From the NCBI RefSeq assembly GCF_900114355.1, contig NZ_FOSS01000003.1, positions 663,495-716,140 of the forward strand: a stretch of 52,646 nt of DNA, in the 5' to 3' direction. The translations under genes and the position numbers were made by a program. Source of the stretch: Lysobacter sp. cf310 (GTDB lineage Bacteria; Pseudomonadota; Gammaproteobacteria; Xanthomonadales; Xanthomonadaceae). Under the pieces are notes generated by a model. The model was given only the letters and a program-made list of their open reading frames with translations, searched no databases and was not told the origin of the DNA. Below are positions 19,285 through 36,957 of the stretch, piece after piece. Numbering within the stretch: position 1 is the first letter of the stretch; each line of letters begins with the position of its first letter.

Positions 19285-19952
19285 GCGACAGCGCGCATCC
19301 ATCCAAGCAGGCGACGGCGACGGACGACGCGCCCCCGCAACGCGCGCAGCCGGCAGCGCGCATCAGCTACGCGCAGTACCGATTCCTGGTGCTGTCCGAT
19401 CTGTACCGGATCACCGGCCACGCCAAGCCGAGCGCGCTGCTGCGCTACGTCTTCCACGGCGAGTCGTATCGATACAATTTCTGGATGCGCACCTGCGCGT
19501 ACGCGAAGGGCCATCCCTGGCTCAGGTACACGCTGTATCCGTTCGCGCGCCTGGTGCTCGGGCACCTGGTCTACAAGCTGGGAATTTCCATCCCCTCCGG
19601 CACCGCCATCGGCAGCGGCTTCTACATCGGCCACTTCGGCGGCATCGTCGTGAGCCAGAAGGCCACGATCGGCCGCAACTGCAATATCTCCCAGGGCGTG
19701 ACCATCGGACGCGCGAACCGCGGCCGCAATCGCGGCTATCCGGTCCTGGGCGACAACATCTACATCGGTCCCGGCGCGGTGATCGCCGGCAGCGTGCGCA
19801 TCGGCAACAACGTGGCGATCGGCGCCAACTGCGTGGTCACGATGGATATCCCCGACGACTCGGTCGTGGTCGGCGTACCGGGCCGGATCATTTCCCGGGA
19901 AGGCTCGGCCGGCTACGTCAATCGGACCGATTACGACGGCAAGCTCGGCTAA
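19281..19952 (+). CDS. Serine acetyltransferase-like hexapeptide acyltransferase
   Basis: Left-handed beta-helix acyltransferase of 223 residues, the last gene of the EPS run. Imperfect [LIV]-G-x4 hexapeptides run from about residue 110 (GTAIGSGFYIGHFGGIVVS, ATIGRNCNISQGVTIG, NIYIGPGAVIAGSVRIG) to VVGVPGRIIS. The HFGGIVVS and QGVTIGRANRG stretches match the CysE/EPS acetyltransferase branch, with the catalytic-type His in GHFGG. The N-terminal about 100 residues are helical and basic. The open frame extends far upstream through the ligase gene, but ATG 19281 overlapping the ligase stop is the likely start. Probably O- or N-acylates an EPS sugar, perhaps with the acyl group activated by the preceding ligase. 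Confidence 0.88.
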   Translation: MSDSAHPSKQATATDDAPPQRAQPAARISYAQYRFLVLSDLYRITGHAKPSALLRYVFHGESYRYNFWMRTCAYAKGHPWLRYTLYPFARLVLGHLVYKLGISIPSGTAIGSGFYIGHFGGIVVSQKATIGRNCNISQGVTIGRANRGRNRGYPVLGDNIYIGPGAVIAGSVRIGNNVAIGANCVVTMDIPDDSVVVGVPGRIISREGSAGYVNRTDYDGKLG

Positions 19953-20516: not shown

Positions 20517-22733
20517 ATGTCCCTATCGACCCTTCGCAGCCGCAAGCTGCCCAGAGCCCTACTTTCTTCGCTCCTGCTTCCGTCCCTTGGCCTCGCCGCT
20601 TTCGGCACCGCCCAAGCCGCAACCTTCTACGTCCGCACCGATGGTGGCGATGCCGCCCAGTGCACCGGCCGCGCCGACGCGGCTTATCCCGGCAGCGGAA
20701 CCGCCCAGGCCTGCGCCTGGAAGAACCCCAACATCGCCATGCCCTCCTCCGGTAGCGCGCGCATCGCAGGTGGCGACACCCTGCTGATCGGCGCCGGCAC
20801 CTTCCAGATCGGCAGCGGCGGCTACATGCAGAAGATCCCGAGCGGCCCGAACGCGACCACGCGCACGCGCATCCTCGGCAAGCCCGGCACCAAGCTGGTC
20901 GGCGTCGCCGGCACCCATCGCGTGCTCAACCTCGACGGCAGCTCCAACGTCGAAGTCGGCAACCTCGAAATCACCGACAACAGCGACTGCGTCTACAACC
21001 ACTCCAACGCCGCGGCCGCCTGCACCAGCGCGATGGCCTGGGCCCGCGTGGGCGTGTACGCCACCGCTTCCAACAACGTGTGGATGCACGACGTGAACGT
21101 GCACGGCATGGCGGCGCGCGGCTTCAACGCCGGCGGCCTGTCCAACTGGACGCTCGAACGCGTCAAGATGAACAAGAACGGCAGCGCCGGCTGGGACGGC
21201 AACGTCGGCACCGGTTCGAATTCGGGCCAGATGATCCTGCGCGACATCGAGATCGGCTGGAACGGCTGCGGCGAGCGCGTCGCGACCGGCGAACCCTGGG
21301 CCTGCTGGGCGCAGACCACCGGCGGTTACGGCGACGGTTTCGGCACCGTCGACACCGGCGGCCAGTGGCTGATCGAAGACGCCTTCATCCATCACAACAC
21401 CTCCGACGGCCTCGACCTGCGTTACATGGACGGCGCCGACGCGACCACCGTGACCCTGCGCCGCATCTACTCGGTCGCCAACGCCGGCAACCAGGTCAAG
21501 ATCAAGGGCAATTCGCTGATCGAGAACTCGGTGCTGGTGGGCAACTGCACCTACTTCCGCGGCAAGGACTTCATGGCCTCGGGCGACCTGTGCCGCGCGT
21601 ACGGCAGCACCCTGCTGCTGATCCTGACCGGCAACGACACCGCGACCGTGCGCCACAACACCATCGCCGGCGAAGGCGATGCGCAGATCGCCTACGGCGA
21701 AGGCGCGTCCAGCGACAAGGTCAACATCCAGAACAACCTGGTGATCGGCTTCCCGTACTACGCCAACACCGCCACCGCGACGCTGTTCAGCGGCGGCAGC
21801 GCCCCCGCCGCCAAATCCTTCTCGGGCAACATGGCCTGGAAGGTGCGCAGCTGCCAGACCGGAACCACCTGCACCCAGGACCCGAAGCTGACCAACATGA
21901 CCCTGGCGGCTTTCGACGCCGAACCGCTCGCCGGCAGTCCGGTGACCGACAAGGCTCCGATGGTCAACGGCATGTCCACCGACTTCCTGCTGCAGCCGCG
22001 TCCCTCGGGCGCCGCCAACGACGTGGGCGCCTACGAGGTCCAGGCCGGTGGCACTCCGCCGCCGCAGCCGCCGACTCCGACCTGCACCCGCGCGGCGCCG
22101 ACCGTGACCCTGAGCGGTCCGACCGCCGCCGTCGCCGCCGGCACGGAGAACAAGTACACGCTGAGCCTGAAGAACAACGACAGCAGCGCCTGCGCCAACA
22201 CGTCGTTCGCCATCGCCCGCACCGTTCCGAGCGGCTGGACCGGCGAGTTGTCCTCGACCGCGATCACGCTGGCTCCGGGCGCCAGCGGCGCGGCGACCCT
22301 GGGCGTGATGTCGAACGTCAGCGCCAGCGCCGGCAGCTACGGCATCGGCGCGGGCGTCAGCAGCAACGTCGGCGCCACCCACACCGGCAACGCCTCGATC
22401 ACCTACAGCGTGGCCGCGGCCGTCGTCGGCCTGACCGAAACCGTGAGCACGAGCAAGGCCAGCTACAAGGCCGGTGAAGTCGTGTCCATCACCGCCCGTG
22501 TCCTCAAGAACGGCGTGGCGGTCTCGGGTGCCAACGTCGCGTTCGATGCGCTGAAGCCCAACGGCGTCAACCACGTGCTCCTGAGCGCCACCACCGACGC
22601 CAGCGGCTATGCGCGCGTGTCCTTCACCTCCGGCACGGGGCCCAGCTCGATCGGCACCTACAAGCTGTCGGCGGTGGCCACCTCCGGCGGCCTGAGCAAG
22701 ACGGCGACCACGACCTTCGCGGTCGCCAAGTAA
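20517..22733 (+). CDS. Secreted beta-helix protein with two C-terminal Ig-like domains
   Basis: Secreted protein of 738 residues. A Sec signal peptide ends at FGTAQA, cleaved near residue 34. The beta-helix domain (about 35-505) is closely related to the lipoprotein at 16317; both share long identical runs such as SDGLDLRYMDGADAT and NAGNQVK. A Pro-rich linker (GGTPPPQPPTPTC, about 510-523) leads to an NEW3-like domain (about 525-625) and a second Ig-like domain (about 635-738, with VSTSKASYKAGEVVSITARV and TTDASGYARVSF). Beta-helix folds in EPS loci are often lyases, epimerases or depolymerases; no catalytic residues are identifiable here. The C-terminal domains suggest polymer or surface binding. 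It is transcribed alone, with its own upstream motif cluster and a strong terminator. Confidence 0.9.
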   Translation: MSLSTLRSRKLPRALLSSLLLPSLGLAAFGTAQAATFYVRTDGGDAAQCTGRADAAYPGSGTAQACAWKNPNIAMPSSGSARIAGGDTLLIGAGTFQIGSGGYMQKIPSGPNATTRTRILGKPGTKLVGVAGTHRVLNLDGSSNVEVGNLEITDNSDCVYNHSNAAAACTSAMAWARVGVYATASNNVWMHDVNVHGMAARGFNAGGLSNWTLERVKMNKNGSAGWDGNVGTGSNSGQMILRDIEIGWNGCGERVATGEPWACWAQTTGGYGDGFGTVDTGGQWLIEDAFIHHNTSDGLDLRYMDGADATTVTLRRIYSVANAGNQVKIKGNSLIENSVLVGNCTYFRGKDFMASGDLCRAYGSTLLLILTGNDTATVRHNTIAGEGDAQIAYGEGASSDKVNIQNNLVIGFPYYANTATATLFSGGSAPAAKSFSGNMAWKVRSCQTGTTCTQDPKLTNMTLAAFDAEPLAGSPVTDKAPMVNGMSTDFLLQPRPSGAANDVGAYEVQAGGTPPPQPPTPTCTRAAPTVTLSGPTAAVAAGTENKYTLSLKNNDSSACANTSFAIARTVPSGWTGELSSTAITLAPGASGAATLGVMSNVSASAGSYGIGAGVSSNVGATHTGNASITYSVAAAVVGLTETVSTSKASYKAGEVVSITARVLKNGVAVSGANVAFDALKPNGVNHVLLSATTDASGYARVSFTSGTGPSSIGTYKLSAVATSGGLSKTATTTFAVAK

Positions 22734-22840: not shown

Positions 22841-23602
22841 TCAACGATACGCGGGCGCCTCGCGATGATCGCGCCAGCGGTAGTAGGCCAAGCCCACCCA
22901 CTCGTGCAGGGCCAGCTCGGTGTTGGCGAGCGCGCTGGTTCGCGGCACCAGCGCCCACGGCAGGCGCGATGGCAGCCGGCGCGCGTCGGTGCCCAGCGGA
23001 CACACCTCGAAGCCGGCACCGGCGAATGCCGCGCGCGCGCGCGGCATGTGGATCAGCGAGGTCACCAGCACGATGCGCGCCGGTAGCGGCGGCGACATCC
23101 GCGCGGCGTGGCGCGCATTGCTCCAGGTGTCGTCGGATTGGGCTTCCACGCGCAGGGCCGCCGCCGATACGCCCTGCATACGCGCGTACGCCGCCATCAG
23201 TTCGGCCACAGCCACCCCTCCACGCCCGCCGCCCACCAGCACCAGTTGCCGTCCTTCGCGCGCGCGCCACCAGGCCACCGCGCGGTCCACGCGTCGCCGG
23301 GACGCCAGGTTGAGTACCGCGAAATCGGTATCGCTGCGCGGGCGCCCGTCGCTGCCGCCGCCGAGCACGACGGCGATCGCCGGCGGCGCGTCGCGGCAGG
23401 CTATCGGCTCGGCGAGCGCCCGCTGCAGCGGTATTCCGAGCAGATTGGCCGCCAGCGGCGTCATTGCCGCGAGCGCGACGACGGCCAACGAAACGCTCGC
23501 CAGCAAGGGCCAACGCCGACGCTGGCGACGCGACCAGGCCCAGGGCAGCGCGGCCCCCGCCAGCAACAGCCATGCGAGCGGGGATAGCAACCAGGCCGCC
23601 AC
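22841..23602 (-). CDS. YdcF/SanA-like DUF218 membrane protein
   Basis: Member of the DUF218 (YdcF/ElyC/SanA) family, 253 residues. Two hydrophobic segments at the N-terminus (about 1-22 and 32-52) are followed by a periplasmic DUF218 domain. AIAVVLGGGSDGRP is the conserved nucleotide-fold start. RVDRAVAWWRAREGRQLVLVGG, the acidic AQSDDTWSNARHAA and IVLVTSLIHMPRARAAFAGAGFEV are the usual family blocks. ElyC and SanA affect envelope integrity and undecaprenyl-phosphate use in E. coli, so a role in lipid-carrier turnover for EPS is plausible but inferred. The GTG start is one base after the flippase stop, so this is the last gene of the minus-strand run. Confidence 0.87.
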   Translation of the reverse strand: MAAWLLSPLAWLLLAGAALPWAWSRRQRRRWPLLASVSLAVVALAAMTPLAANLLGIPLQRALAEPIACRDAPPAIAVVLGGGSDGRPRSDTDFAVLNLASRRRVDRAVAWWRAREGRQLVLVGGGRGGVAVAELMAAYARMQGVSAAALRVEAQSDDTWSNARHAARMSPPLPARIVLVTSLIHMPRARAAFAGAGFEVCPLGTDARRLPSRLPWALVPRTSALANTELALHEWVGLAYYRWRDHREAPAYR

Positions 23603-23603
23603 G

Positions 23604-25130
23604 TCAACGCGACCGCGACCGCGACATCAAGGCCATCGTCATCCCACGCAGCTTCCGATCCAGGGCCAGGACCGGCAAGGCATACAGCAGCACGAACAGC
23701 AGGGCGGCGACGGACAGTCGCGCCCAAATGGCATGCAGCCCGAACAGGTCGGTGCCGCGCGCCACCGCCACCAGCACGGTCAGGCAGCCGAGCGACAGCG
23801 CGACCGCATGCAGGTCCGGCAGGCGCGCCAATCCCTTCGGGCAGATCGCGAACTGGGCGAAGGCCAGCGCGCCGTAGGCGATCGCGGTGGACCACACGGC
23901 CCCCATGTAGCCCAGGCGCGGAATCAGGATCAGGTTCATGACCACGTTCAACGCCGCCGCGCCCAGGGTGATGATCAGCACCTGCACGGTCTTCTTCTTC
24001 AGCTGCAGACCGTAGTTCGAGATGGCGAGCACGGCGTACAGCGACACGGTGATGCCGATCACGATGAACACGATGCCCGACGCGGCCTTGTCGCGACCGC
24101 TCAGCGCCACCAGCAGGTCCTGCCCCGATACCAGCAGAACCGCGATGATCGCCACCACCGCGTAGGTCATCGGCAGCAGCACCTTTTCCTTGAGCGCGCG
24201 CACGGCCTCGCTGCCGCCGGTTTCGTAGGCGCGCATGACCACCGGCGTGAACGCCTCGGACAGGGTCGCGTCTATGAACACGTTCAACTGCATCGCCAGC
24301 GAATAGCCGATGGCGTAGATGCCGACCGCGGCGAAATCGCCGGTGATCTGCTTGAGCAGCACGCGGTCGACGTTGGCCAGGATGCTGAACGCCAGCTCGT
24401 GCGCCATCAGCGGCAAGCCGTAGACCAGGCCGCTGCGCACGGCCTGCCAGTCGAGCGCGTCGCGCGCCACGCTGACGTTGCGGTACATCCAATGCGCGAG
24501 CCAGGCCAGCACCAGCACGGTGGCGACGATCTTGCCGCCGTAGACCGCCAGCGCGCTTCTTTGCACCAGGATCACCGCGCCCAGCACCAGCACCAGTTCG
24601 AGCATGCGCCCGATCACGCGTATGGCCATGACGATGTCCGAACGCTCGCTGGCGCGTATCACCATCTGCACGATGTTGACCGCCGCCAGCATCGGCATCA
24701 TCAGCACGGCGCACCAGACCAGCGGCGAGAACGCGCCCTGCCCCAGCCAGGACCAGAGCGCGATCGCGCACAGCCCCAATAACCATAGCGTTGCGGACAG
24801 GATCAGCGGCAGCAGCACCATGTTGGTGCCGAACTCCTGCATCCGCCGCGCGTTCCCGTCGTAGGGATAAAAGCGCACGATCGCGTGCGGCGTGCCGAGC
24901 TTGATGATCGCCACGCCCAGTAGCATCAGGGTGTCGTAGTACCTGAGGATGCCGAACTGGGTGTTGTCGAGAAACCGGGTCAGGATCGGGAACGAGATGA
25001 AGCCCGCCAGCATCACCAGGCCGTTCGAGATCGAATAGCGCAGGTAATGCGTGACGATGCCCGGCCGTTCCCGCGGCGGGACACGCAGGCCGTCGTCCGC
25101 GCCCGTCGCGCTCTCCGTCGAACTATTCAT
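23604..25130 (-). CDS. Wzx-like polysaccharide flippase (MATE/MOP superfamily)
   Basis: Polytopic inner-membrane protein of 508 residues with about 12-14 hydrophobic segments. Its start YSISNGLVMLAGFISFPILTRFL is the typical opening helix of the polysaccharide-synthesis branch of the MOP exporters. GIYAIGYSLAMQLNVFIDATLSEAF and GAAALNVVMNLILIPRLGYMGAVWST are the equally characteristic second-half helices. It would flip the undecaprenyl-linked EPS unit to the periplasm for the Wzy-like polymerase. It is the only flippase candidate in the window, which ties the minus-strand run functionally to the plus-strand glycosyltransferases. It could instead, or also, carry a lipid-linked product of the NRPS-PKS. 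The Arg-rich tail is cytoplasmic. Confidence 0.92.
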   Translation of the reverse strand: MNSSTESATGADDGLRVPPRERPGIVTHYLRYSISNGLVMLAGFISFPILTRFLDNTQFGILRYYDTLMLLGVAIIKLGTPHAIVRFYPYDGNARRMQEFGTNMVLLPLILSATLWLLGLCAIALWSWLGQGAFSPLVWCAVLMMPMLAAVNIVQMVIRASERSDIVMAIRVIGRMLELVLVLGAVILVQRSALAVYGGKIVATVLVLAWLAHWMYRNVSVARDALDWQAVRSGLVYGLPLMAHELAFSILANVDRVLLKQITGDFAAVGIYAIGYSLAMQLNVFIDATLSEAFTPVVMRAYETGGSEAVRALKEKVLLPMTYAVVAIIAVLLVSGQDLLVALSGRDKAASGIVFIVIGITVSLYAVLAISNYGLQLKKKTVQVLIITLGAAALNVVMNLILIPRLGYMGAVWSTAIAYGALAFAQFAICPKGLARLPDLHAVALSLGCLTVLVAVARGTDLFGLHAIWARLSVAALLFVLLYALPVLALDRKLRGMTMALMSRSRSR

Positions 25131-25168
25131 CGCGCGCGACCGCGATCGTCATGGACGCTCATTTCGCA

Positions 25169-26953
25169 TCACCTCGGAGGAGAGCCCGGATGGGCCGGGC
25201 CGCAGGCCGGAGGCGCAGCGGGCGAAGCCGCCGGATCCGCCGGCCCTGGGGCCGGCGCGCGAGCACGCGTGGCCGTCGCGGCCCGCTCATCGAGCACGCC
25301 CACGTAGGCGGTCCTGTTGGGCGGGCGTCCGAGCACATCCAGGACTTCGACGCTGCCCGCCACGTTGTAGGTATGGCAGCCATCGACGCTGCGCGTCAGA
25401 TAGGGCGCCAGCCGCGAAAGTTGCCGCTCGCGATAGGTCGTGGGCCCCAGCTCCAGCACTTCGTTGAACACGACGGCATTGCCGTAGCCGGGCCCGCAGT
25501 CCTGGGCCGGCCGGATCAGGCTGCCGTTACGCTGGAACAGCCGCCCGGCCATGCGGGCGCGGCGCACATCGCAGACGATGGGCGAGGCCGGGTGCGGCGT
25601 GTACGGGCCCTCCAGGCGGTCGGCGACGAACAGGAACAACTCGTCGCAGGTGTTGTTCTGGTTCTCGGCGACGTTGGCGAACAGATACCAGTGGCCCTGA
25701 TGATGGTGCAGGCTCGGATCCACGCAGACGCGCCCGATCACGAGGTCGCGCACCCGCTCCCATCGCAAGGGGAAGTCGCTGGCCCGGTACAGACTGACGC
25801 GGCGGTCGTAGCCGGACTCGACCGTCATGTACCACTGTCCCTCCCAGGCGAACACTTGCGGGAAGGACAGATGGCCGGGCTCGTCCAGCGCGACGCCGAG
25901 CGAGCGCGCGCCTCCCGCACTCAGTTCCACGCAGGCGATGGTCGCCTTCTTCAGCCGCGGCTCCAGCATTTCCTCCACGAACAGCAGCCTGCGTTCCTGC
26001 GCCATCACCACGAAGGGATCGCCCCACCAGCCCTTCGGCGCTTTCAACAAGGCATGCGATCCGATCGCCGGCGAGCGCGGATCCAGCGGCGCTCCGCCAA
26101 GGCGCAGCACCAGCGTCCAGCCGACGCGGGCGTTTCTGAACCAACCGGTCATCCAGCGCGGAGAAGCGCGCAGAATCGACGCGAAGGCATGCAGCCCGGC
26201 GGCCGGCACCAGCGGCGCCTGCGGCTGCAACTCCAGGCTCGCCATCGCAGGCGCGTCCGCGCCGAGATCTCCCTGCGCCAGCCGACGCAAGGCGCGCAAC
26301 AGCAAGGCCGGCAGCTTGCGGAATGCATCCTCGCGCTGCTTGAGAAACGACGTCGCCCGGGTCCGGCCCCAACTGGCCGCCAGCTCGACGGGCGCCTGGT
26401 CCGGTGCGCGCAGGACCAGGGCCATCGGCGTCGCCGTTTCGCGGCGCAGCATCGGACCGAGCAAGGGCAAGCCGGCATGGCGATCGTCGAGCAGGCTGGC
26501 GTCGACCCGCCAGCATGCGCATTCCGTCCGGGCCGCCAGCGCCGACGCCCAGGACTCCGCGCCCAGCACGATCAGCAGATCCGGGCGCGCGCCGGCGATG
26601 CGCTCGACCAGGGAGGCCTCGTCTCCCGGACCGGCCGGCGCGAGAACGGCATCGCCGTACGGACCCGACGGCATCGGCATCGCGGTCAGGCTGCGGGTGG
26701 GGCCTAGCAAGGCGCGCTCGAACGCGATCAGCGCGCGTACGCTCGCGGGAACGCCAGCGACCTTCGGCACGCTCGCCTCGGCCGCGCTCAGCGTGGTCAG
26801 TTCGATCCAGTCGTATCCGGCCACCAGGCCATGGAACGCACGCACCCATCCGGGGACCTGCGGCGGTCCCACCAGCGTTACGCGCAAGGGCCGTGTGGCG
26901 CCGACCGGCGGAGCGTACAGCGGGGTTCGTTCGCGCGCGCCGACGGCTTTCAT
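25169..26953 (-). CDS. Formyltransferase-like plus GINT1-like beta-propeller protein
   Basis: 594 residues in two parts. The N-terminal about 25-260 resembles formyltransferase-fold proteins (PLRVTLVGPPQVPGW, RPDLLIVLGAESWASAL, CWRVDASLLDD), without the usual HxSLLP motif in clear form. The second part, about 310-545, matches the five-bladed propeller fused to plant glucosamine inositolphosphorylceramide transferases: GWWGDPFVV, HLSFPQVFAWEGQWYMTVES, RVCVDPSLHHHQGHWYLFAN and GRLFQRNGSLIRPAQDCGPGYG. The C-terminus is an Ala/Pro tail. The open frame continues upstream, but the ATG at 26953 forms an ATGA overlap with hydrolase 1. In bacteria such fusions appear beside glycan genes. A sugar-modifying role (N-formylation or glycan binding) is inferred. 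Confidence 0.8.
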   Translation of the reverse strand: MKAVGARERTPLYAPPVGATRPLRVTLVGPPQVPGWVRAFHGLVAGYDWIELTTLSAAEASVPKVAGVPASVRALIAFERALLGPTRSLTAMPMPSGPYGDAVLAPAGPGDEASLVERIAGARPDLLIVLGAESWASALAARTECACWRVDASLLDDRHAGLPLLGPMLRRETATPMALVLRAPDQAPVELAASWGRTRATSFLKQREDAFRKLPALLLRALRRLAQGDLGADAPAMASLELQPQAPLVPAAGLHAFASILRASPRWMTGWFRNARVGWTLVLRLGGAPLDPRSPAIGSHALLKAPKGWWGDPFVVMAQERRLLFVEEMLEPRLKKATIACVELSAGGARSLGVALDEPGHLSFPQVFAWEGQWYMTVESGYDRRVSLYRASDFPLRWERVRDLVIGRVCVDPSLHHHQGHWYLFANVAENQNNTCDELFLFVADRLEGPYTPHPASPIVCDVRRARMAGRLFQRNGSLIRPAQDCGPGYGNAVVFNEVLELGPTTYRERQLSRLAPYLTRSVDGCHTYNVAGSVEVLDVLGRPPNRTAYVGVLDERAATATRARAPAPGPADPAASPAAPPACGPAHPGSPPR

Positions 26954-27798
26954 CCGGCTGGGCTCCGCGGCAAGCGGCTCATCCAGCCTGCGATCGCCTC
27001 GATCAGGCGCTCGCGCTGATCCCGTCCGAAGTAGGTATGGTCGCAATCGGGCCAGTAGTGCAGGTTCACGCGCGGATCGCGGGCCGCCGCGCCGAACGCC
27101 CATTCGAACTGGCGCGGATGCAGGAACCGATCGGCGTAGCCGCCGCTGAAGATGCACAGCAGGCGGACGTCGCGCGCCAGCATCGCCGCGAACTGTTCGC
27201 GTGCTTGCGCATGACTGGGCCAGCTGCGGAAGTCGGTCGAATCCAGACCGGCGTTCCCGCGCATGCGCCCTCGCAGCTTGCGGGCGAAATGCCGCCATTC
27301 CCTGGGCAGGCGGCGCAGGAGTTCGAGCGCGCGCGCGTAGTAGTACCAGGGGCCGGTGTAGCACAGGCCATCCAGCAGCAACACCGCCGAGACCCGCGTA
27401 TCGACGTTGGCGACATCCCAGCCGGTGTCGGCGGCGCTGCAGATTCCGCCCACCGCGAACACGCGGCAGCCGTGCAGCGCTTCGAGCTGATCCAAGGCGG
27501 CGATCGTCGCCTGGGTGGCGTCGCACTCCGGCAGGCGCGGCGCCTCTCCGACACCGGGGATGTCGTAACGGAAGGTCCGTATCCCCAGCGCCGCGAGACG
27601 TTGGGCCAGCAGCGCGTGCAAGCGGAACGGTCCGGATCGCGGCTGCAAGCCCGCGCTGGGCAACAGCAGCGTCGGCCCGGCGCCGGGCGCGCCGCTGAGT
27701 ACGCCATGCAATCGCCCATCGGGGCCGAAGCGCACGAACACGTCGTCGGCCGCGACGGCCGCGACGGGCTTGGCATCCAACACGGCATTCATGCCCAT
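26950..27798 (-). CDS. Alpha/beta hydrolase 1 (exosortase-associated hydrolase 1-like)
   Basis: Alpha/beta-hydrolase fold, 282 residues, cytoplasmic. The nucleophile elbow reads GGICSA, placing a cysteine (Cys120) where most hydrolases have serine. Candidate acids are Asp143 (LLLDGL) and Asp223 (GGYADRF), and the catalytic His is His254 in CDHTYF. It resembles the hydrolase 1 that accompanies hydrolase 2 in exosortase EPS loci. Here the pair directly follows the NRPS-PKS gene, which has no release domain, so thioester release or cyclisation is an attractive role, by inference. The start is ATG 27798 (GAGGAA about 4 bases before), with an alternative at 27792 that overlaps the upstream stop. 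The downstream gene overlaps by 4 bases. Confidence 0.8.
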   Translation of the reverse strand: MGMNAVLDAKPVAAVAADDVFVRFGPDGRLHGVLSGAPGAGPTLLLPSAGLQPRSGPFRLHALLAQRLAALGIRTFRYDIPGVGEAPRLPECDATQATIAALDQLEALHGCRVFAVGGICSAADTGWDVANVDTRVSAVLLLDGLCYTGPWYYYARALELLRRLPREWRHFARKLRGRMRGNAGLDSTDFRSWPSHAQAREQFAAMLARDVRLLCIFSGGYADRFLHPRQFEWAFGAAARDPRVNLHYWPDCDHTYFGRDQRERLIEAIAGWMSRLPRSPAG

Positions 27799-28592
27799 GC
27801 TTCCTCGCGCACCGCCAGCCCCAGGTTTCCGACCACCTCGCGCACCGGGGGCGTAAGAAAGAACGCCGCGTCCATCGCCGCGCCCACGCTGAAGCTGGGG
27901 GCGCTGGCAGGCAGCGTCAGGGTCTTGGCGAGGCCGGTCGGCAGCGCCTCCGGATCCTTGCGGACGACCGCCCACACGGGCACCGCGGCGCGCCCCAGGC
28001 CCTGGTCGATGCGCGTTTCCCCGAGCTCGACGCGCAGGCGCGACGGCGCGGGAAAGCCCATCAGCTGGCCGTCCGCGGGATCGGTGCTGCGGGCGACGCC
28101 GGCACGCGGCGGCGGACGCAGCGCGCGTTCGCGCGCATCGCTCTCCACCAGTTCCCGCAGCCAGGCCGCACCGTCGACTATCGGCTCCCAAAGCACGATC
28201 AGATCGGCGTCACCGCCCCGCTCCAGCCAGCCGCGCACGGCCAGCGCGCCACCGCGCCATGCGACCAGCGCCAGCCGCTTGATCGAGGTGCGCTGACGCA
28301 GCGCGGCCACCGCCGCTTCGAGATCCCGATGCATCGAGCTCAGATCCAGATCCTCGCCGGTACCCGCGGAATCGCCGGTGCCATGGAAGTCGAAACGCAG
28401 GGTCGGCAGGCCCAGGGCCGCGAGTTCGCTGGCGACCTCGGTGATGAAACGACGGCTGCGCGGCAGTTCGTGCAGCAACGGCGGTACCAGCACGACGCCG
28501 GTCGCGGGCGCGCCCGGCACGCCATGCAGCGCCGCGTACAAGCGCCGCGAAGGCGCGCCCAGCCAGAACGGCTGCCAACCATCCAGGCTCAT
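27789..28592 (-). CDS. Alpha/beta hydrolase 2, degenerate active site
   Basis: Second alpha/beta-hydrolase-fold protein, 267 residues, resembling exosortase-associated hydrolase 2 (opening GVVLVPPLLHELPRSRRF, LRFDFHGTGDSAG). The elbow, expected as GxSxG, reads AWRGG at residues 111-115, so there is no serine or cysteine nucleophile, and no late Asp/His pair is visible. This is likely a non-catalytic partner of hydrolase 1, or an enzyme using a different site. A good ribosome site (GGAGG) precedes the ATG. It sits 49 bases after the NRPS-PKS stop and overlaps hydrolase 1. The family is known to occur in pairs, which matches this arrangement. Confidence 0.78.
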   Translation of the reverse strand: MSLDGWQPFWLGAPSRRLYAALHGVPGAPATGVVLVPPLLHELPRSRRFITEVASELAALGLPTLRFDFHGTGDSAGTGEDLDLSSMHRDLEAAVAALRQRTSIKRLALVAWRGGALAVRGWLERGGDADLIVLWEPIVDGAAWLRELVESDARERALRPPPRAGVARSTDPADGQLMGFPAPSRLRVELGETRIDQGLGRAAVPVWAVVRKDPEALPTGLAKTLTLPASAPSFSVGAAMDAAFFLTPPVREVVGNLGLAVREEAWA

Positions 28593-28641
28593 CGCGATCG
28601 CCTCCGTGGAATCTCGAGACTGCGGGTGCGTGCGGCGCGGT

Positions 28642-31600
28642 TCATAGACCGGACCCTTCCTTCAAACCGAACAGGCGTCGCAAGCCGCTGCTGATGCGTC
28701 CGCCCATACCGCTGGCGGGCGCGGCGTTCTGGGTGGCAACGGGCAGACCCGCCGCGACCTGGGCCAGGGTCTCCGCGCCCAGGCGGATCAACTTGATGCG
28801 CTTGCCGGTATCGCGCTCGACGCGATTGGCCATCTGCACCGCCAGCATCGAATGCCCGCCCAGCTCGAAGAAGTTGTCGTCCGGACCCGCGGGCAGGCCC
28901 AGCAGCTCGGACCAGATCTGCGACAGGTAACGGACGCGAGGGTCGGCTGCCGCCCCAGTCGCGCTCGGAACAGGCGCGACGGCCTGTTCCTTAGCGACTG
29001 GCAGCAGCAGCGCGTTGCGGTCGATCTTGCCGTTGGGCAAGAGCGGAATCTCTTCGAGCACGACGAAGTGCTGCGGCAGCATGTAGGCCGGGAGCAGTTC
29101 CCGCAGGTGCGCGCGCAACGCCGCTTCCTCGATGGTCGCGCCCGGCGCGGCCACCAGATAGGCCACCAGACGCTGGTCGTTGGCGCGATCCTCGCGCACG
29201 ATCACGAGCGCGCGCGCGACTTCCTCGCGCGCAGCCAGATTGGCCTCGATCTCGCCCAGTTCGATGCGATAGCCACGCACTTTGACCTGGTGATCCAGAC
29301 GCCCCAGATGCTCGAGATTGCCGTCCGCGCGCCAGCGGCCGCGATCGCCCGTGCGGTACAGCCAGGCCGCGCCGTCCGCCTGCGCTGCATCGGCGAACGC
29401 CGCCGTGTAGCGATCGACCACGAAGCGTTCGGCGGTCAGCTCGGGGCGTTCCAGATAGCCCTTGGTGACGCCTTCGCCGCCTATGCAGATCTCGCCCGGC
29501 ACGCCGTAGGGGCACAGCTCGCCATGCGCGTCGACGATCCACACGCTGGTGTTGCCTATCGGCCGCCCGATATGGATGTCGGGCGCTTGCCCGGCCGGGG
29601 CCGCGACGATGCGCGCGCAGGTGGACCACACGGTGGTCTCGGTGGGCCCGTAGACGTTCCACAGGGATCCGCAGCGCGACAACAGCGACGTGGCCAGATC
29701 CAGGCCCATCGGTTCGCCACCGCACAGCGCCTTGAACCCCGGCGCGCCGCGCCAGCCCGCATCGATCAGCAGGCGCCAGCTCGACGGCGTGCCCTGCATC
29801 ACCGTCGCGGCGCTGCTTTCCAACAGCGCGCGCAAGGCGACGCCGTCGCCGGCGGTTTCGCGATCCGCCAGCACGATCTGCGCGCCCACCGCCAACGGCA
29901 GCAGCAATTCCAGCACCGCGATGTCGAACGACAGCGTGGTCACCGCCAACAGCCGATCCTGCGCGTCCAGTCCGGGTTCGCGGCGCATGCTGTCGAGGAA
30001 GTTGGACACGGCCCGATGCGGCACGATGACGCCCTTGGGGCGGCCGGTGGATCCCGAGGTGTAGATCACGTAGGCCGGATCCTCGGGCTGCGCGGCGTGC
30101 TCGTCGCGACCCGGCCGCGTCGCCTCCGCCGTCGCGAACAGGGACGCATGCTCGTCGAACAGAAGCACCGGCCTGCCGCGCAAATCGAAGCGGGCGGCGT
30201 GCTCGCGCGTGGTCAGGAGCAGGGCCAGTCCGGCGTCGGCGGCCATGTAGGCCAGGCGTTCGGCGGGGAACTGCGGATCCAGGGGCACATAGCCCGCGCC
30301 GGCCTTGAGGATGCCCAGCAGCGCCGCCAGCATGTCCGGACCGCGATCCAGGGCCAGCCCCACCAGCGCGCCGCGGCGGACGCCATGGCCGCGCAGCACC
30401 TGGGCGATGCGATTCGAGCGCGCCTCCAACTCGGCATAGCGCAACGACGCCGGACCTGCGCGCAACGCGACCCGGTCAGGCGTGCGCTCGCATTGGGCCT
30501 CGAAGTATTCGTGCATCCTGCAGGCGCGGTCGTAGGCGATCGCCGGCGGCTGCAACGAGGCCAACGCCGTACGCGCCTGCGCGTCGACCAGCGGCAGGCT
30601 CGCCAGATCCGCCGTCTCCCGCTCCACCGCGGCGCGCAGCAGGGTTTCGTAGGCGCTTAGCCAGCGCTGGATGGTGGTCGCGTCGAACAGGTCGCGGTTG
30701 TATTGGCATTCGAGCCGCAAGCGACCGTGGACCTGCACGGCGTTCACGAACAGCTCGAAGGTTTCGAAGCTGCGCGGATTGCTGTCGAACTCCATGGATA
30801 CGCCGTGAAACGCGGCGCATTCCTGGTCCATGGCCTGGTCGAGGTTGAACAGTACGCTGACCAGCGGTATCCGCGCCGGATCCCGCCGCAGCCGCAGCTT
30901 CCTGAGCAGCGTGCCGAAGGTGTAGCGCTGGTGCTCCAAGGCATCGAGCAACATGGCCTGCGCATCGTCGATCGCCTGCGCGAACGACTGGGCGGATTCG
31001 AGCTCGAAGCGCAGCGGCAGCAGATTGACGCAATGCCCCACCAGATGGTCGGCGCCGCAGACCGCCTGCCCCGCCGCGGGAATCCCGACCACCACTTCCG
31101 ATTGCGACGACAGGCGCGACAGCAGCGCGGAAAAACCCGCAAGCAGCGTGGCGAACATGCCGACGCCGCGGGCCGCGCCGGTCCGGCGCAGCGCATCGAG
31201 CAAATCGGCATCGAGCACGTGATCCAGCCGGGCCGAGGCGAAACTGCGGTTCGGCGGCCGCGGCCGATCGGTGGGCAGCTCCAGCACCGGCGCGCCCTTG
31301 GCGTAGCGCGAGAGCCAGTAGGCCTCGTCGGCGAGCTGCGCCGCATCGCCCTGATGCTCGGCCTCCGCCAATGCGTAAGCGAGGAACGAGGAGGCTTCGG
31401 GCAGGCTCGACGCCGGCGTCCCGAAACGTTTTCCGTACAGGGCGCCCAGCTCGCGCACGATCGCCCACCACGACCATCCGTCGCAGACGATGTGATGGGC
31501 GGTCAGCAGCAGCAGATGCTCGTCCGCCGCGAGGCGCAGCAGCTGCGCGCGAAACAGCGGCCCCTGGTCCAGCACGAACGGCGTTTCCACCGCGAGCCGG

Positions 31601-34600
31601 ATGCGCTCGTCGACGGCCGTCCGTCGCGCGATCGGGTTCAGCGACGACAGGTCTTCGACCGGCAACGGCAAGGCATGGCGCTCCGGCACGCGGAAGCTTG
31701 CGCCGTCCGGCCCGATGCTTGCGCGCAGGGATTCGTGCCGGTCCACCAGTTCCTGCAGGGCCTCGCGCATGAATTCCAGGTGCAGCGCGCCGCGGAACTG
31801 CAGCGATACCGAAAGATTGAAAGCCAGCGACGCTTCCCGCCCGAGCTGGTCGGCCAGCCAGATCTCGCGCTGCGGCTCCGTGGTCGGCGCCACGCGCGCG
31901 CGGATGCCGCCGCCGAATGGCTCGTAGCCGGCTCGCGACGCCGGCGCGGCTTCGTCGCCGGGCACGGCGGATGCGGGCAGGTCTCTCGCAGCCGCAAGCT
32001 CGGCACGCCGCGACGGCGGCGATGGCATCGGCGCCTTCTCGGCCTCCGCTTCGGAGGTCGCGGCCGGCGGCACCGGCGTGCCCGCGGGCTCCGCCGGCAA
32101 CTGCTCGTCCAGCATCGTCGCCAGGCGACCCAGGCTGCTGCATTCGCTCATCAGCTGCCGGAACGTCAGTTTGACCGCGTAGGCTTTCTGCAGACGCAGC
32201 GCGACCTGGGTCAGCATCAGGCTGTCCAGACCGAGCTCCATGAAATTGGCTTCGTCGTCGGCCTCGGACAGGTCGAACCCGACCACGTCCTCGAATAGGG
32301 CCGAGAGCTGCGCGACCAGCCGCGCATGGCGATCCGGCAGGGCCGCGGTGGCCCGCACGGTCGCGTCCTCGGCGGCGGGTGCGGGCGCAAGCGCCGGCGC
32401 GAGGTTCGCGCCGGGGAGCGCGACGACGTTCGCGGCCGCCGCAGCCTCGACCCAGTAGCGCTGCCGTTCGAACGGATAAGTGGGCAGCAATACGCGCCGG
32501 CGCGTAGTCCGACGGTCGAACGCCGCCAGGTCGATCGCGATACCGCGGCACCACAACTGGCCCGCCGCGGCGAGGATGCTGGCGACCTCGGTCGCAGGGT
32601 CGTCGGCCAGCGACGGCACCGCCGTGGCCTGCTGCTTCGACATGGCCGGATGTTGACGCGACAAGGCGCACAGGGTGGCGCGCGGGCCGGCTTCCAGCAG
32701 CACCCGCGACGGCGTGTCCAGCACCCTGCCCACCGCCGTGGCGAAGCGAACCGGCTCGCGCAGGTGCGAAGCCCAGTAATCGGGCGAGGTGGCGGATGCG
32801 GCGTCCAGCCAATCGCCGGTCGCGGTCGAGACGATCGGGATCAGCGGCGCCGACAGCGTCAGGGCGGCGACTTCGGCGCGGAACGGCGCCACCACCGGCT
32901 CCATCATCCGCGAGTGGAAGGCGTGCGAGGTGCGCAGGGCGCGGCAGGCCACGCCCTGCGCTTCGAGTTCGAGCTGGAAGCGCGCGATCGCGTCCAGGGC
33001 GCCCGATACCACCACGCTGCCCGGCGCGTTCTCGGCGGCCAGCGACAGATCCGCGGGCAGCCTGGCCAGCAATTCGTCCAAGGGCAGCCGTACCGACAGC
33101 ATGGCGCCGGGCGGCTGCGCCTGCATCAGCGCGCCGCGCCGCGCGACCAGGTTCAGCGCATCGGCCAAGCCGAACACGCCGGCCAGCGTCGCGGCGACGA
33201 ACTCTCCGACGCTGTGTCCGATCATCGCCGTCGGCACGATGCCGTGGCTCATCCACCACTGCGCGAGCGAGTACTCGATCGCGAAGGTCGCCGGCTGCAT
33301 GATCGCGGTCGGCAGCAGCGCCTCGGGGTCGTCCGAGAACACGCGCTCGCGCAGGTCGAAGCCGAGCTGCGCGAGCAAGGCGTCCGCGCAGGCGTCGAAT
33401 GCCGCCTGGAACGCCGGCTGGGTGTCGTACAGGCCGCGCCCCATGCCTGGATAGGTCGCGCCCTGTCCGGGGAACAGGAACACGACCTCGCCCTGCCGCG
33501 CCGGCTTGGCGCGTGCGGCGGCGGCGGCGATGTCGGGGCCGCGCAGTTGCGCCACCGCGGCGGCGGCGTCCTCGGCGACCACCGCGATGCGATGCGCGAA
33601 GGCCTTGCGGCCCAGCGCGAGCGTCCACGCCGCGTCGGCCAGGTTCAGGCCCGGCGCGCCGTCGAGATGGTCGGCCAGGCGCGTCGCCGCGTGCGCCAGC
33701 GCCGTCGGCGTGCGTGCGGACAGCGCCAACAGTTGCGGCCCTCGCGCCGGGTCCGACGGCGGCCGGCTCGGCGCCTCCTCCAGCACGACGTGCGCATTGG
33801 TGCCGCCGACGCCGAACGAACTCACGCCTGCGCGGCGCGGCGCGGCGCCGGCCGGCCAGTCCGTCAGGACGTCGTTGACGACGAAGGGCGAACCGGCGAA
33901 ATCGATGACCGGATTGGGCGACTTGAAATGCGCGGTCGCCGGTATGCGCTGCTCGGCCAATGCCAGCGCGGTCTTGATCACGCCGGCCGCGCCCGCGGCG
34001 ATAACCAGATGGCCGACATTGCTCTTCACCGATCCGATCCGACAGAAGCCGCGTTCTTCGGTGCCGCGGCGGAATGCGCGGGTCAGGCCTTCGATCTCGA
34101 TCGGGTCGCCCACCGGCGTGGCGGTGCCATGGGTTTCGACATAGCCGATGCTGCGCGGATCCACCCGCGCCCGATCATGGGCCATGGCGATGACCGCCGC
34201 CTGGCCTTCGCTGCTCGGCGCGGTGAAGCTGGCCTTGCCTGCGCCGTCGTTGTTGACCGCGCCGGCGCGGATCACCGCGACTATGGGATCGCCGTCCGCC
34301 TGTGCATCGGACAGTCGCTTGAGCAGCACGATCGCCGCGCCATCGCTGAACACCGTGCCCTGTGCGCTCGCATCGAACGGCCGGGTGTGGCCGTCGGGCG
34401 ATAGCATCGATCCTTCCTGATAGAAGTAGCCGCTGCGCGGCGGGCAGGTGACGCTGATACCGCCGGCCAGGGCCATGTCGCAATGGCCTAGCGTCAGACT
34501 GTCGACGGCCTGGCAGATCGCCACCAGCGAAGTCGAACAGGCGGTGTGCACGCTGACCGCCGGGCCGGTCAGATTGAGCTTGTGCGCGACCCGGGTGGCG

Positions 34601-36957
34601 ATGAAATCTTTTTCGTTATTCAGCATCACCTGGAAGGCGCCGACCTTGTCGACCCGCTCCGGGTGCGCGGACACGTGCCGCTGGAAATAGCTGGCATTGA
34701 ACATGCCGCCGAATACGCCCACCGGCGCCGCGGTCGCGTCGGGCACGTGGCCGGCGCGTTCCAGACATTCCCAAGCCAGCTCGAGGAAGATCCGCTGCTG
34801 CGGGTCCATCAACTCGGCTTCCTTGGGGCCGATACCGAAGAACGCCGCGTCGAACTGCTCGACGCCGTCGATCACGCCGCGCGCCGGCACGTAGGCCGGG
34901 TCGTCTCGATCCTGCGCGCTGACGGCGGGATCCAGTTCCTCCGGGGCGAAGACGGTGATCGAATCGCGCCCCTCGCAGAGGTTGCGCCAGAACGCCTCGA
35001 CGTCCGCGGCGCCGGGGAAGCGTCCGGCCATGGCCACGATCGCGATGGGCTCGGCGGCGGCCCCATGAGCCTGCATGCGACGGGCCGACGCATAGCGCGC
35101 CGGAGCGATGTCCGTCGCGTCGCCGCCTGCAAGCGAAGCGGCCAGCAGGGCCGGCGTCGGATAGCGGAACAATTGCGCGGTCGGGATGGCGACGGCCGGC
35201 GTGCCGGCCTGCTTGAGCCGCTGCAACAGCCTGGCCGCCGACAGCGAATCGCCGCCCAGCTCGAAGAAGTTGTCGTGGCGCCCGACCTGATCGACGGCGA
35301 GGGTGTCGCCGAACGCGGCGCACAGCGCAGCCTCGAGCGCGCCGATCGCGGGCTCGAACGCATACGCGAGCTCGGGGCGCTGGCGAGCCGGCGCCGGCAG
35401 CGCGCGACGATCGAGCTTGCCGTTCTCGGTCAAGGGCAACGCCGCGAGTTCGACGAATACGCTGGGGACCATGTAGTCCGGCAAGGCCGTCGCGAGATGG
35501 GCGCGCAGGGTCGCCTGGCTGGCGCGCGCCTCGGCGGGCACGACATAGGCCACCAGCCGCGCCTCGCCGCCGTCGCGATCGGCGGCTGCGATCACGGCGC
35601 AGGCGCGGACGCACTCGTGCCTCGCCAGCACGCTCTCGATTTCGCCGGTCTCGATGCGGAAACCGCGGATCTTGACTTGATGGTCGCTGCGGCCCAGGTA
35701 CTCCAGATCGCCGTCGGCGAGCGGACGGGCCAGATCGCCGGTCTTGTACAGACGTACGCGCTCGCCTTCGGGCGAGGTCCAGTCGAAGAACCGTTCGGCG
35801 GTCAACGCCGGGCGATTGAGATAGCCGCGGCTCACGCCGGCGCCCGCGACATGGATCTCGCCGACTTCGCCGACGGCGACCGGTGCGAGTGCGGGATCGA
35901 GCACATACAGATGCAGATCGGGGATGGGCGCGCCGATCACGCTGCCTGCGCTGCGCTCCAGATCCGCGCGGGTTATCGGCCGGTAAGTGACGTGCACCGT
36001 GGTTTCGGTGATGCCGTACATGTTGATCAGGCGCGGCGACCTGTCGCCGTGACGCTCGAACCACGGCCGCAGCATCTGCAGTTCCAAGGCTTCGCCGCCG
36101 AACACCACGTAGCGCAGCGCCAAGCCGGAAGGCTCGGTCGCCGATGCGAGATCGGCATGGATGAGGCCGCGGAACGCCGACGGCGTCTGGTTGAGCACGG
36201 TCACGCGCTCGCGCAGCATCAGCGCATGGAACGCCTCCGGCGATCGGCTGATCAGGAACGGCACGACCACGACGCGGCCGCCGTGGATCAGCGCGACCCA
36301 TATCGCCCACACCGAGAAGTCGAAGGCGTGGGAATGGAAGAAGGTCCACACATCGTCGGGGCCGAATTCGAACCAGGGCCGGGTCGCCAGGAACAGGCGC
36401 GCGACGTTGCCATGGGTGACCTGGCAGCCCTTGGGCTGGCCGGTCGAGCCGGACGTGTAGATGACGTAGGCCAGATGCTCGGGCCGCGCCAACGGCTCGG
36501 GATCGTGCACGGGTTCGGCGGCGAATTCGGACCAGTCGCCGTCCAGCATCAAGGTCGTCGCGTCGGTCGCGGGCAAGGTCTGCTTCTGCGCCGACGAGGT
36601 CAGCAGCACGGCGGGACGCGCATCCTCGAACATGAACTGCACGCGATCGCGCGGATAGGAGGCATCGATCGGCAGGTAGGCCCCGCCCGACTTCAGGATG
36701 GCGAGCAGCCCCACCACCATCTCCAGCGAACGTTCCAAACCGATCGCCACCAGCGTCTCCGGCCCCACCCCGAGGGAGCGCAGGCGATGGGCGAGCTGGT
36801 TGGCGCGATGGTTCAATTCGCGATAGCTCAGGCTGGCGCCGTCGCAGCTGACCGCGATGGCGTCCGGGCGCGCGGCAGCCTGCTGTTCGATCAGTTGCGG
36901 TATGCAGACGAGCGGGCGGGAGGGCGCAGAACCATCGGATAGCTTGTTCATACCCAT
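28642..36957 (-). CDS. Hybrid NRPS-PKS, A-PCP-KS-AT-ACP-C-A-PCP
   Basis: Multimodular synthase, 2771 residues, making a short peptide-polyketide. A1 spans about 20-525 (YTSGSTGQPKG; specificity residues read D-F-W-S-V-G-M-V-H-K, close to the Thr code). PCP1 carries Ser571 (LGGDS). KS spans about 636-1063, triad Cys807/His943/His983. AT spans about 1158-1470, with GHSVGE Ser1249 and HAFHS, a malonyl-type signature. ACP carries Ser1579 (LGLDS). An Ala/Pro/Glu linker precedes C (about 1690-2135, HHIVCDG intact). A2 (about 2150-2645) reads roughly D-I-L-S-L-G-V-V-W-K, a small residue such as Gly. PCP2 carries Ser2703. There is no starter C, no KR/DH/ER/MT, and no TE or reductase. The start is ATG 36957 behind GGGGA; a GTG at 36996 and ATG 36951 are alternatives. 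It heads the minus-strand run. No MbtH or phosphopantetheinyl transferase is nearby. Confidence 0.95.
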   Translation of the reverse strand: MGMNKLSDGSAPSRPLVCIPQLIEQQAAARPDAIAVSCDGASLSYRELNHRANQLAHRLRSLGVGPETLVAIGLERSLEMVVGLLAILKSGGAYLPIDASYPRDRVQFMFEDARPAVLLTSSAQKQTLPATDATTLMLDGDWSEFAAEPVHDPEPLARPEHLAYVIYTSGSTGQPKGCQVTHGNVARLFLATRPWFEFGPDDVWTFFHSHAFDFSVWAIWVALIHGGRVVVVPFLISRSPEAFHALMLRERVTVLNQTPSAFRGLIHADLASATEPSGLALRYVVFGGEALELQMLRPWFERHGDRSPRLINMYGITETTVHVTYRPITRADLERSAGSVIGAPIPDLHLYVLDPALAPVAVGEVGEIHVAGAGVSRGYLNRPALTAERFFDWTSPEGERVRLYKTGDLARPLADGDLEYLGRSDHQVKIRGFRIETGEIESVLARHECVRACAVIAAADRDGGEARLVAYVVPAEARASQATLRAHLATALPDYMVPSVFVELAALPLTENGKLDRRALPAPARQRPELAYAFEPAIGALEAALCAAFGDTLAVDQVGRHDNFFELGGDSLSAARLLQRLKQAGTPAVAIPTAQLFRYPTPALLAASLAGGDATDIAPARYASARRMQAHGAAAEPIAIVAMAGRFPGAADVEAFWRNLCEGRDSITVFAPEELDPAVSAQDRDDPAYVPARGVIDGVEQFDAAFFGIGPKEAELMDPQQRIFLELAWECLERAGHVPDATAAPVGVFGGMFNASYFQRHVSAHPERVDKVGAFQVMLNNEKDFIATRVAHKLNLTGPAVSVHTACSTSLVAICQAVDSLTLGHCDMALAGGISVTCPPRSGYFYQEGSMLSPDGHTRPFDASAQGTVFSDGAAIVLLKRLSDAQADGDPIVAVIRAGAVNNDGAGKASFTAPSSEGQAAVIAMAHDRARVDPRSIGYVETHGTATPVGDPIEIEGLTRAFRRGTEERGFCRIGSVKSNVGHLVIAAGAAGVIKTALALAEQRIPATAHFKSPNPVIDFAGSPFVVNDVLTDWPAGAAPRRAGVSSFGVGGTNAHVVLEEAPSRPPSDPARGPQLLALSARTPTALAHAATRLADHLDGAPGLNLADAAWTLALGRKAFAHRIAVVAEDAAAAVAQLRGPDIAAAAARAKPARQGEVVFLFPGQGATYPGMGRGLYDTQPAFQAAFDACADALLAQLGFDLRERVFSDDPEALLPTAIMQPATFAIEYSLAQWWMSHGIVPTAMIGHSVGEFVAATLAGVFGLADALNLVARRGALMQAQPPGAMLSVRLPLDELLARLPADLSLAAENAPGSVVVSGALDAIARFQLELEAQGVACRALRTSHAFHSRMMEPVVAPFRAEVAALTLSAPLIPIVSTATGDWLDAASATSPDYWASHLREPVRFATAVGRVLDTPSRVLLEAGPRATLCALSRQHPAMSKQQATAVPSLADDPATEVASILAAAGQLWCRGIAIDLAAFDRRTTRRRVLLPTYPFERQRYWVEAAAAANVVALPGANLAPALAPAPAAEDATVRATAALPDRHARLVAQLSALFEDVVGFDLSEADDEANFMELGLDSLMLTQVALRLQKAYAVKLTFRQLMSECSSLGRLATMLDEQLPAEPAGTPVPPAATSEAEAEKAPMPSPPSRRAELAAARDLPASAVPGDEAAPASRAGYEPFGGGIRARVAPTTEPQREIWLADQLGREASLAFNLSVSLQFRGALHLEFMREALQELVDRHESLRASIGPDGASFRVPERHALPLPVEDLSSLNPIARRTAVDERIRLAVETPFVLDQGPLFRAQLLRLAADEHLLLLTAHHIVCDGWSWWAIVRELGALYGKRFGTPASSLPEASSFLAYALAEAEHQGDAAQLADEAYWLSRYAKGAPVLELPTDRPRPPNRSFASARLDHVLDADLLDALRRTGAARGVGMFATLLAGFSALLSRLSSQSEVVVGIPAAGQAVCGADHLVGHCVNLLPLRFELESAQSFAQAIDDAQAMLLDALEHQRYTFGTLLRKLRLRRDPARIPLVSVLFNLDQAMDQECAAFHGVSMEFDSNPRSFETFELFVNAVQVHGRLRLECQYNRDLFDATTIQRWLSAYETLLRAAVERETADLASLPLVDAQARTALASLQPPAIAYDRACRMHEYFEAQCERTPDRVALRAGPASLRYAELEARSNRIAQVLRGHGVRRGALVGLALDRGPDMLAALLGILKAGAGYVPLDPQFPAERLAYMAADAGLALLLTTREHAARFDLRGRPVLLFDEHASLFATAEATRPGRDEHAAQPEDPAYVIYTSGSTGRPKGVIVPHRAVSNFLDSMRREPGLDAQDRLLAVTTLSFDIAVLELLLPLAVGAQIVLADRETAGDGVALRALLESSAATVMQGTPSSWRLLIDAGWRGAPGFKALCGGEPMGLDLATSLLSRCGSLWNVYGPTETTVWSTCARIVAAPAGQAPDIHIGRPIGNTSVWIVDAHGELCPYGVPGEICIGGEGVTKGYLERPELTAERFVVDRYTAAFADAAQADGAAWLYRTGDRGRWRADGNLEHLGRLDHQVKVRGYRIELGEIEANLAAREEVARALVIVREDRANDQRLVAYLVAAPGATIEEAALRAHLRELLPAYMLPQHFVVLEEIPLLPNGKIDRNALLLPVAKEQAVAPVPSATGAAADPRVRYLSQIWSELLGLPAGPDDNFFELGGHSMLAVQMANRVERDTGKRIKLIRLGAETLAQVAAGLPVATQNAAPASGMGGRISSGLRRLFGLKEGSGL

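Follow-up and report, generated by a model that had tools for sequence, protein, structure and literature searches.

Gene organization of the locus

The window, i.e., the whole stretch of 52,646 nucleotides from Lysobacter sp. cf310 that was analysed (contig NZ_FOSS01000003.1, positions 663,495 to 716,140; the genome comprises 4.73 Mb on 12 contigs), carries an exopolysaccharide (EPS) locus with a run of six minus-strand genes built into it. The run is headed by a gene for a hybrid NRPS-PKS synthase (28642..36957) of 2771 residues, counted from the ATG, for which Pfam gives the domain order A-T-KS-AT-T-C-A-T. It continues on the same strand with genes for two alpha/beta-hydrolase-like proteins, here referred to as hyd2 (27789..28592) and hyd1 (26950..27798), a 594-residue propeller protein (25169..26953), a Wzx-like flippase (23604..25130; PF01943), and a DUF218/ElyC-like protein (22841..23602; Pfam and NCBIfam). 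The successive intergenic gaps, from the synthase gene to the DUF218 gene, are 49, -10, -4, 38, and 1 bp, and this spacing suggests that the run is a single operon. No recognized small-molecule exporter was found by Pfam among the six proteins, and no known sugar-acylating enzyme was detected between the synthase and the flippase.

A preliminary description of the locus had placed an A-PCP-KS-AT-ACP-C-A-PCP synthase at the head of a tight minus-strand run, in agreement with the Pfam order, the intact motifs (see below), and gaps of at most 49 bp. Both hydrolases that it listed are present in the run, with the correct frame of hyd1 lying inside a longer ORF. The 594-residue protein had been called a formyltransferase/beta-propeller protein. 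The propeller half stands, since the C-terminal part matches GINT1_N (PF24793), while the formyltransferase is unsupported: the N-terminal half has no Pfam or NCBIfam match at E 0.001 and the protein no PDB sequence match up to E 1. The flippase, described as the only Wzx, is the sole PF01943 match in a Pfam scan of 30 proteins or frames of the window.

EPS genes recognized by Pfam and NCBIfam are located on both sides of the run, as had been proposed for the rest of the pathway. On one side, an initiating polyprenyl glycosylphosphotransferase (38541..39947, minus strand) scores 539.8 bits with TIGR03013, the XrtA/PEP-CTERM type (cut-off 393.35). On the other, an NAD-dependent sugar epimerase/dehydratase (3217..4386, minus strand) is followed on the plus strand by a UDP-glucose/GDP-mannose dehydrogenase (4492..5787), a second NAD-dependent sugar epimerase/dehydratase (5784..6800), a chain-length determinant (6797..9088; TIGR03007-like, 258.6 bits, cut-off 278.85), a tyrosine autokinase (9085..9840; TIGR03018-like, 161.2 bits, cut-off 230.65), an outer-membrane barrel (9827..11173; TIGR03016-like, 66.5 bits, cut-off 90.85), three glycosyltransferases (GT2, GT4, and GT4; 11190..14899), and a Wzy-like polymerase/ligase (14960..16288; PF04932). 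Next come a 493-residue protein lacking a family match, a PaaK-like adenylate-forming protein, and an EpsC/CysE-like acetyltransferase (16404..19952, plus strand), and then an adhesin-like protein (20517..22733, plus strand; NPCBM_assoc, choice-of-anchor Q). The locus thus contains the initiating transferase, glycosyltransferases, flippase, polymerase, chain-length protein, and outer-membrane protein of a Wzx/Wzy-dependent EPS system, the last two being assigned from scores below their NCBIfam cut-offs. Among the nearest relatives, Lysobacter sp. Root916 (G012) has a synthase that is 98% identical and a locus in the same order gene for gene, and the locus of Lysobacter sp. Root76 (G013) is likewise syntenic. 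The adhesin-like gene is kept together with the locus in these two genomes and in G015 and G024.

The synthase and its predicted product

The GC content of the synthase ORF at codon positions 1, 2, and 3 is 0.72, 0.51, and 0.87, and its active-site motifs are intact: the three carrier serines, TACST in the KS domain, GHSVG and SHAFH in the AT domain, and HHIVCDG in the C domain. A, T, KS, AT, and C domains are hence combined on a single chain, as in a type I NRPS-PKS hybrid. The A-domain pockets were read at the GrsA positions, and one column falls within an insert for many of the sequences (that of the window was read by eye). On this reading, the pocket of the first A domain is DFWNVGMVHK, which we take to be a Thr code, and that of the second is DILQLGVVWK, presumably a Gly code; the AT motif SHAFH is assumed to be of the malonyl type. 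The predicted carrier-bound product would be Thr-C2(keto)-Gly. The preliminary description spoke of an acyl-peptide, which in the sense of a lipopeptide is unlikely because the synthase starts with an A domain having a Thr-type code.

The first A domain could be read in 18 synthases (window, G015, and 16 loci) and is divided equally among Thr-type, Val-type, and Pro-type codes (six each). Of 25 synthases, 23 show the DILQ Gly-type code in the A domain after the PKS module, the exceptions directly after the PKS being L045 (Ser-type) and L046 (DMPQ). A class-III aminotransferase domain follows the PKS carrier in 17 of 23 relatives (Pfam names it as such in the three checked, L045, L050, and L059) and is absent in the window synthase and in L041, L042, L043, L044, L051, and L057. 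Variation is also seen elsewhere in the family. In L042 and L043 the synthase is split into two ORFs, the second beginning at about the C domain, compared with one ORF in the window. The last module is C-T with no recognized A domain in L046, L050, L052, L053, and L054, and in L055, L058, and L064 its A domain has a degenerate-looking pocket.

A C-terminal thioesterase or reductase for release is usual, though not universal, in type I NRPS-PKS hybrids. Pfam detects neither in the window synthase, where 33 residues remain after the last carrier. In all 25 synthases the tail following the last carrier comprises 19 to 39 residues, and therefore there is no room for a thioesterase. In the window this tail is the short basic segment GGRISSGLRRLFGL. 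When each of the 25 tails, which are related sequences, was compared with its own shuffled versions, the best 12-residue helical moment was above 95% of them in 19; an amphipathic tail is missing in L060. The motif [RK][LIMVW][FLI]G occurs in 17 of 25. The tail is reminiscent of the MinD membrane-targeting helix; as a basic amphipathic segment, it may tether the synthase to the inner membrane or, just as well, serve as a docking helix for hyd2.

The two hydrolase-like proteins

Hyd1 and hyd2 are divergent relatives of the NCBIfam families "exosortase A-associated hydrolase 1" (TIGR03100) and "exosortase A-associated hydrolase 2" (TIGR03101), with scores well below the cut-offs of these families (44.8 against 168.45 bits and 67 against 202.75 bits, respectively). 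This kinship is new here. Hyd1 has a Cys in the nucleophile elbow (GICSA) together with the conserved Asp and His. In hyd2, the position where an active alpha/beta-hydrolase has Ser, Cys, or Asp is occupied by Arg, so that the elbow reads AWRGG as compared with GFSLG in the solved hydrolase 9pic.

These replacements extend beyond the window. Binning of 96 domains, near copies included, with our own profiles gave 44 hyd1 and 52 hyd2 domains. All 44 in the hyd1 bin have Cys at the nucleophile position, and His is present in each of the 39 that have letters at the corresponding position. The hyd2 bin has Arg in 48 of 52 and Cys in four (L095, L097, L100, and L103). We take the four for hyd1, because each adjoins or is fused to an Arg-bearing hyd2 and has a hyd1-like elbow, WGLCDAA; this reassignment is a judgement that uses the same residue as the count itself. 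The hydrolases 1 and 2 in the loci fetched for TIGR03100 and TIGR03101, which are called XrtA-type here on the basis of family names, have Cys and Arg at the same positions as hyd1 and hyd2 of the window.

Distribution and co-inheritance with EPS genes

A pattern scan derived from a hyd1 alignment, run on genome contigs of 84,980 species with two peptide patterns that favour near relatives, identified 24 loci in Lysobacter, Dokdonella, Pseudoxanthomonas, Luteimonas, and metagenome-assembled genomes, some of which are labelled only Gammaproteobacteria, Proteobacteria, or Pseudomonadota. In 23 of them, an NRPS/PKS ending in a carrier directly precedes hyd2-hyd1, and in the remaining one (L049) the contig begins at hyd2. 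A KS domain is visible in 20 of the 23 synthase loci; the other three (L052, L061, and L064) are truncated where the contig begins. Within the 10 kb at most that was read on each side, 17 of 24 loci show the propeller protein and 14 of 24 a Wzx relative. The genomes of L056 and L062 gave no PF01943 flippase match. Plasmid-borne copies of hyd1 are unsupported, no match being found at E 1e-5 in 72,556 plasmid records, from which records close to the window's own genome were perhaps left out.

The EPS initiating transferase (PF02397) was searched for in 22 of the 24 genomes, L041 and L044 being omitted as the syntenic Root76 and Root916 loci. It is on the same contig as hyd1 in 16 genomes, at a distance of 3 to 37 kb (median 15 kb). 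In the other six (L049, L051, L052, L054, L061, and L064) it is on another contig, and the contig with hyd1 ends within 14 kb upstream; in L061 and L064 the contig continues downstream of hyd1 for approximately 199 and 46 kb, respectively, and no PF02397 match was found there. Contigs were equated by their identical lengths and, for L060, by the locus itself. A survey of 41 genomes, i.e., the window's own and 40 relatives, found hyd1 in eight and TIGR03013 above its cut-off in 12. The latter is present in all eight genomes with hyd1 versus four of 33 lacking it (Fisher p 5e-6, relatedness ignored). In the eighth of these (G038), the hyd1 relative is weak, with 33% identity or less, and the transferase is 48 kb away; another contig of this genome holds a second pair of hyd1-like matches (G038:C50:10286-11873). 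The four genomes that carry the transferase and lack hyd1 indicate that this EPS type occurs without the peptide.

A tree of 43 KS domains contains a branch (support 81/78) that separates the 22 linked to hyd1 and hyd2, together with L018 of G038, from the rest; the G038 contig bearing the L018 KS also has a hyd1-like gene. The hyd-linked label, which takes in L085 with scanned flanks that are not EPS genes, requires two changes on the tree, a number as low as this being reached in none of 500 shuffles. The hyd-linked KS domains stand alone on one side in none of 200 bootstrap trees (none with just one change). A chance ORF or a chance neighbourhood is ruled out by the codon-position GC, the conserved locus order, and the KS tree.

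The hydrolase pair outside the near relatives

Of 274 genomes sampled from the class, 16 have TIGR03101 and 33 the TIGR03098 ligase above the respective cut-offs, and all 16 are among the 33 (Fisher p 4e-17). The two genes are on one contig within approximately 21 kb in 11 of the 16. Among 20 regions hand-picked from TIGR03101-like matches, a free A-domain ligase is encoded in the same stretch as the pair in eight (L095, L096, L097, and L100 to L104). In four distant loci (L085, L086, L087, and L091), hyd2 follows a carrier domain as part of a fusion protein and thus occupies the thioesterase position. Fusions of hyd2 with hyd1 are found in L088, L089, L090, and L100, and in L092, L093, and L094, NRPS modules adjoin separate hyd2 and hyd1 genes. 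No A domain lies in the stretches fetched for L088, L089, and L090, which hold hyd2/hyd1, or in those for L098 and L099, where EPS-type genes accompany the pair.

EPS-type genes lie beside L091 (Wzx, own profile), L092 (transferase, own profile; GT4, Pfam), and L093 (Wzy_C, Pfam). None were found beside L085, L086, L087, and L094, for which two, two, three, and one flanking proteins, respectively, were examined by Pfam together with our own profiles. Outside the order, hyd2/hyd1 thus adjoin or are fused to A-T or NRPS modules in seven loci from six genomes; four of these showed no EPS genes, so that the pair can occur without EPS. The expectation that the synthase is mostly found beside EPS genes is favoured among the near relatives (transferase within 37 kb in 16 of 22, and its type present in all eight hyd1 genomes of the 41-genome survey), and the picture is mixed outside the order.

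Comparison with known systems

The locus shares with XrtA/PEP-CTERM EPS loci the TIGR03013 transferase and, below the cut-offs, the chain-length, kinase, and outer-membrane proteins. It differs in having a multimodular NRPS-PKS beside the hydrolase pair instead of a free TIGR03098 ligase, of which none was found at E 1e-120 in the window's own genome (five of 19 candidates scored). It is not an XrtA locus proper, because its genome has no exosortase (no PF09721 match at E 0.001); exosortase is also absent in 22 of the 24 genomes with hyd1.

DltABCD and AlmEFG use an A domain and a carrier protein to provide a surface polymer with aminoacyl groups. The combination of A domain and carrier is shared with the window, where, in contrast, two amino acids and a polyketide unit would come from one 2771-residue synthase, and where a Cys hydrolase and an Arg pseudo-hydrolase are present; no families of the DltB/DltD or AlmG type were matched by Pfam among the window proteins scanned. 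Hybrids of the iturin/microcystin type carry an aminotransferase after the PKS carrier. The class-III aminotransferase of the 17 relatives mentioned above is at that place, whereas the window synthase and six of the 23 relatives are without it. Moreover, unlike the iturin/microcystin type, the present synthases start with an A domain having an amino-acid code wherever it could be read, lack a thioesterase, and have an EPS setting.

N-acyl amino acid synthase genes are reported to adjoin PEP-CTERM and EPS genes (PMC7293339), and these are the nearest printed precedent that we found. The common feature is an amino-acid-derived small molecule encoded beside EPS genes; the accessible part of that paper describes no NRPS or PKS, however, and the product is N-acylated tyrosine. 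In the accessible text of Haft et al. 2006 (PMC1569441), the terms "hydrolase", "ligase", and "polyketide" do not occur. No published EPS-NRPS system was among the matches listed, judged by titles and the starts of abstracts; most subscription journals were outside the scope of this search, so that it is weak evidence of novelty.

Proposed role and alternative explanations

It is likely that the synthase is dedicated to use by the EPS pathway. As in the preliminary description, the peptide may be attached to, or co-exported with, the polymer, and the leading reading, to which we give an even chance, is that the pseudopeptide becomes covalently attached to the EPS repeat unit. The first A domain would load Thr, the PKS module would add one unreduced C2 unit, and the C-A-T module would add Gly, giving a short hydrophilic pseudopeptide held as a glycyl thioester on the last carrier. 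Hyd2, as an Arg pseudo-hydrolase, would be the docking partner of this carrier in place of a thioesterase. On the cytoplasmic side, hyd1, being of the Cys type, would take over the chain as an acyl-enzyme and acylate a sugar of the lipid-linked repeat unit with it, after which the neighbouring Wzx would flip the acylated unit. The basic amphipathic tail would perhaps keep the synthase at the inner membrane.

Attachment of this kind presupposes acyl transfer, and hyd1 could instead simply hydrolyse the thioester. The pseudopeptide would then be a free secreted product, e.g., a signal, a matrix component, or a metal ligand, that is inherited with the EPS genes and stays unjoined, with hyd1 acting as an external hydrolysing thioesterase. 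The N-acyl amino acid synthase genes near PEP-CTERM and EPS genes already in print (the accessible part of PMC7293339) fit such a product, as do the four of seven distant A-T/NRPS loci without EPS genes. This is the main rival, which we regard as less likely than attachment. The run holds a Wzx and a DUF218 protein and no recognized small-molecule exporter, and in all 16 loci whose upstream side could be traced, the contig carries the EPS transferase. In addition, genomes that have hyd2 at the family level possess one free adenylation ligase, apparently not enough to make a free peptide.

A transferred chain might also end up on a different surface molecule that belongs to the locus, for instance a glycolipid or the adhesin-like protein (20517..22733), which the EPS would subsequently hold. 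The position of the adhesin-like gene between the EPS genes and the synthase run, and its retention in G012, G013, G015, and G024, would suit this possibility, which is nonetheless improbable: several synthase loci showed no such gene in the 10 kb that was read to either side, and the presence of Wzx in the run speaks for a lipid-linked sugar. That an ordinary secondary-metabolite cluster has come to lie in an EPS locus by chance is conceivable in a genus rich in NRPS genes. This explanation is disfavoured, and we give it very little weight, as the synthase-hyd2-hyd1 order is the same in 23 of 24 loci and cut off in the other one, the 22 hyd-linked KS domains group with a single further KS on one side of a branch (81/78), and the EPS transferase is nearby.

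Extending the attachment reading beyond the near relatives, we tentatively suggest that hydrolases 1 and 2 constitute a general machinery by which aminoacyl and peptidyl chains are offloaded from carriers, composed of an Arg pseudo-hydrolase in the thioesterase place and a Cys acyltransferase, which in Lysobacterales would serve a membrane-tethered NRPS-PKS that writes Thr/Val/Pro-C2-Gly onto each EPS repeat unit. If so, assembly-line enzymes would decorate a polysaccharide, and genome-mining programs that list such loci as sources of free metabolites would misread them. Two "hypothetical" hydrolase families of EPS loci would gain a testable role, and a new kind of carrier-protein release system would be at hand. 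The Thr-, Val-, and Pro-type first codes, together with the almost constant Gly-type code, would predict varied EPS substituents.

Additional genes at the locus and in related loci

Some further genes deserve mention. The PaaK-like protein among the EPS genes (17902-19284, plus strand) scores below every NCBIfam cut-off listed, and the G024 locus showed no relative of it. In L048, L050, L052, L059, and L061, a second small NRPS (C-A-T, with a Gly-type code where readable) is encoded before or after Wzx. Separate AMP-binding proteins with the unusual pocket DYYPTTMR are encoded near the synthase in L053, L055, L058, and L060, the hosts being two Dokdonella genomes, a Lysobacterales metagenome-assembled genome, and Luteimonas (Pfam check on the L060 protein only). 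Finally, the chromosomal gene at 50137-51024 (minus strand) encodes a protein with a strong match to the aminoglycoside/hydroxyurea kinase family APH_6_hur (PF04655), and a relative is located at the same place in G012 and G015.
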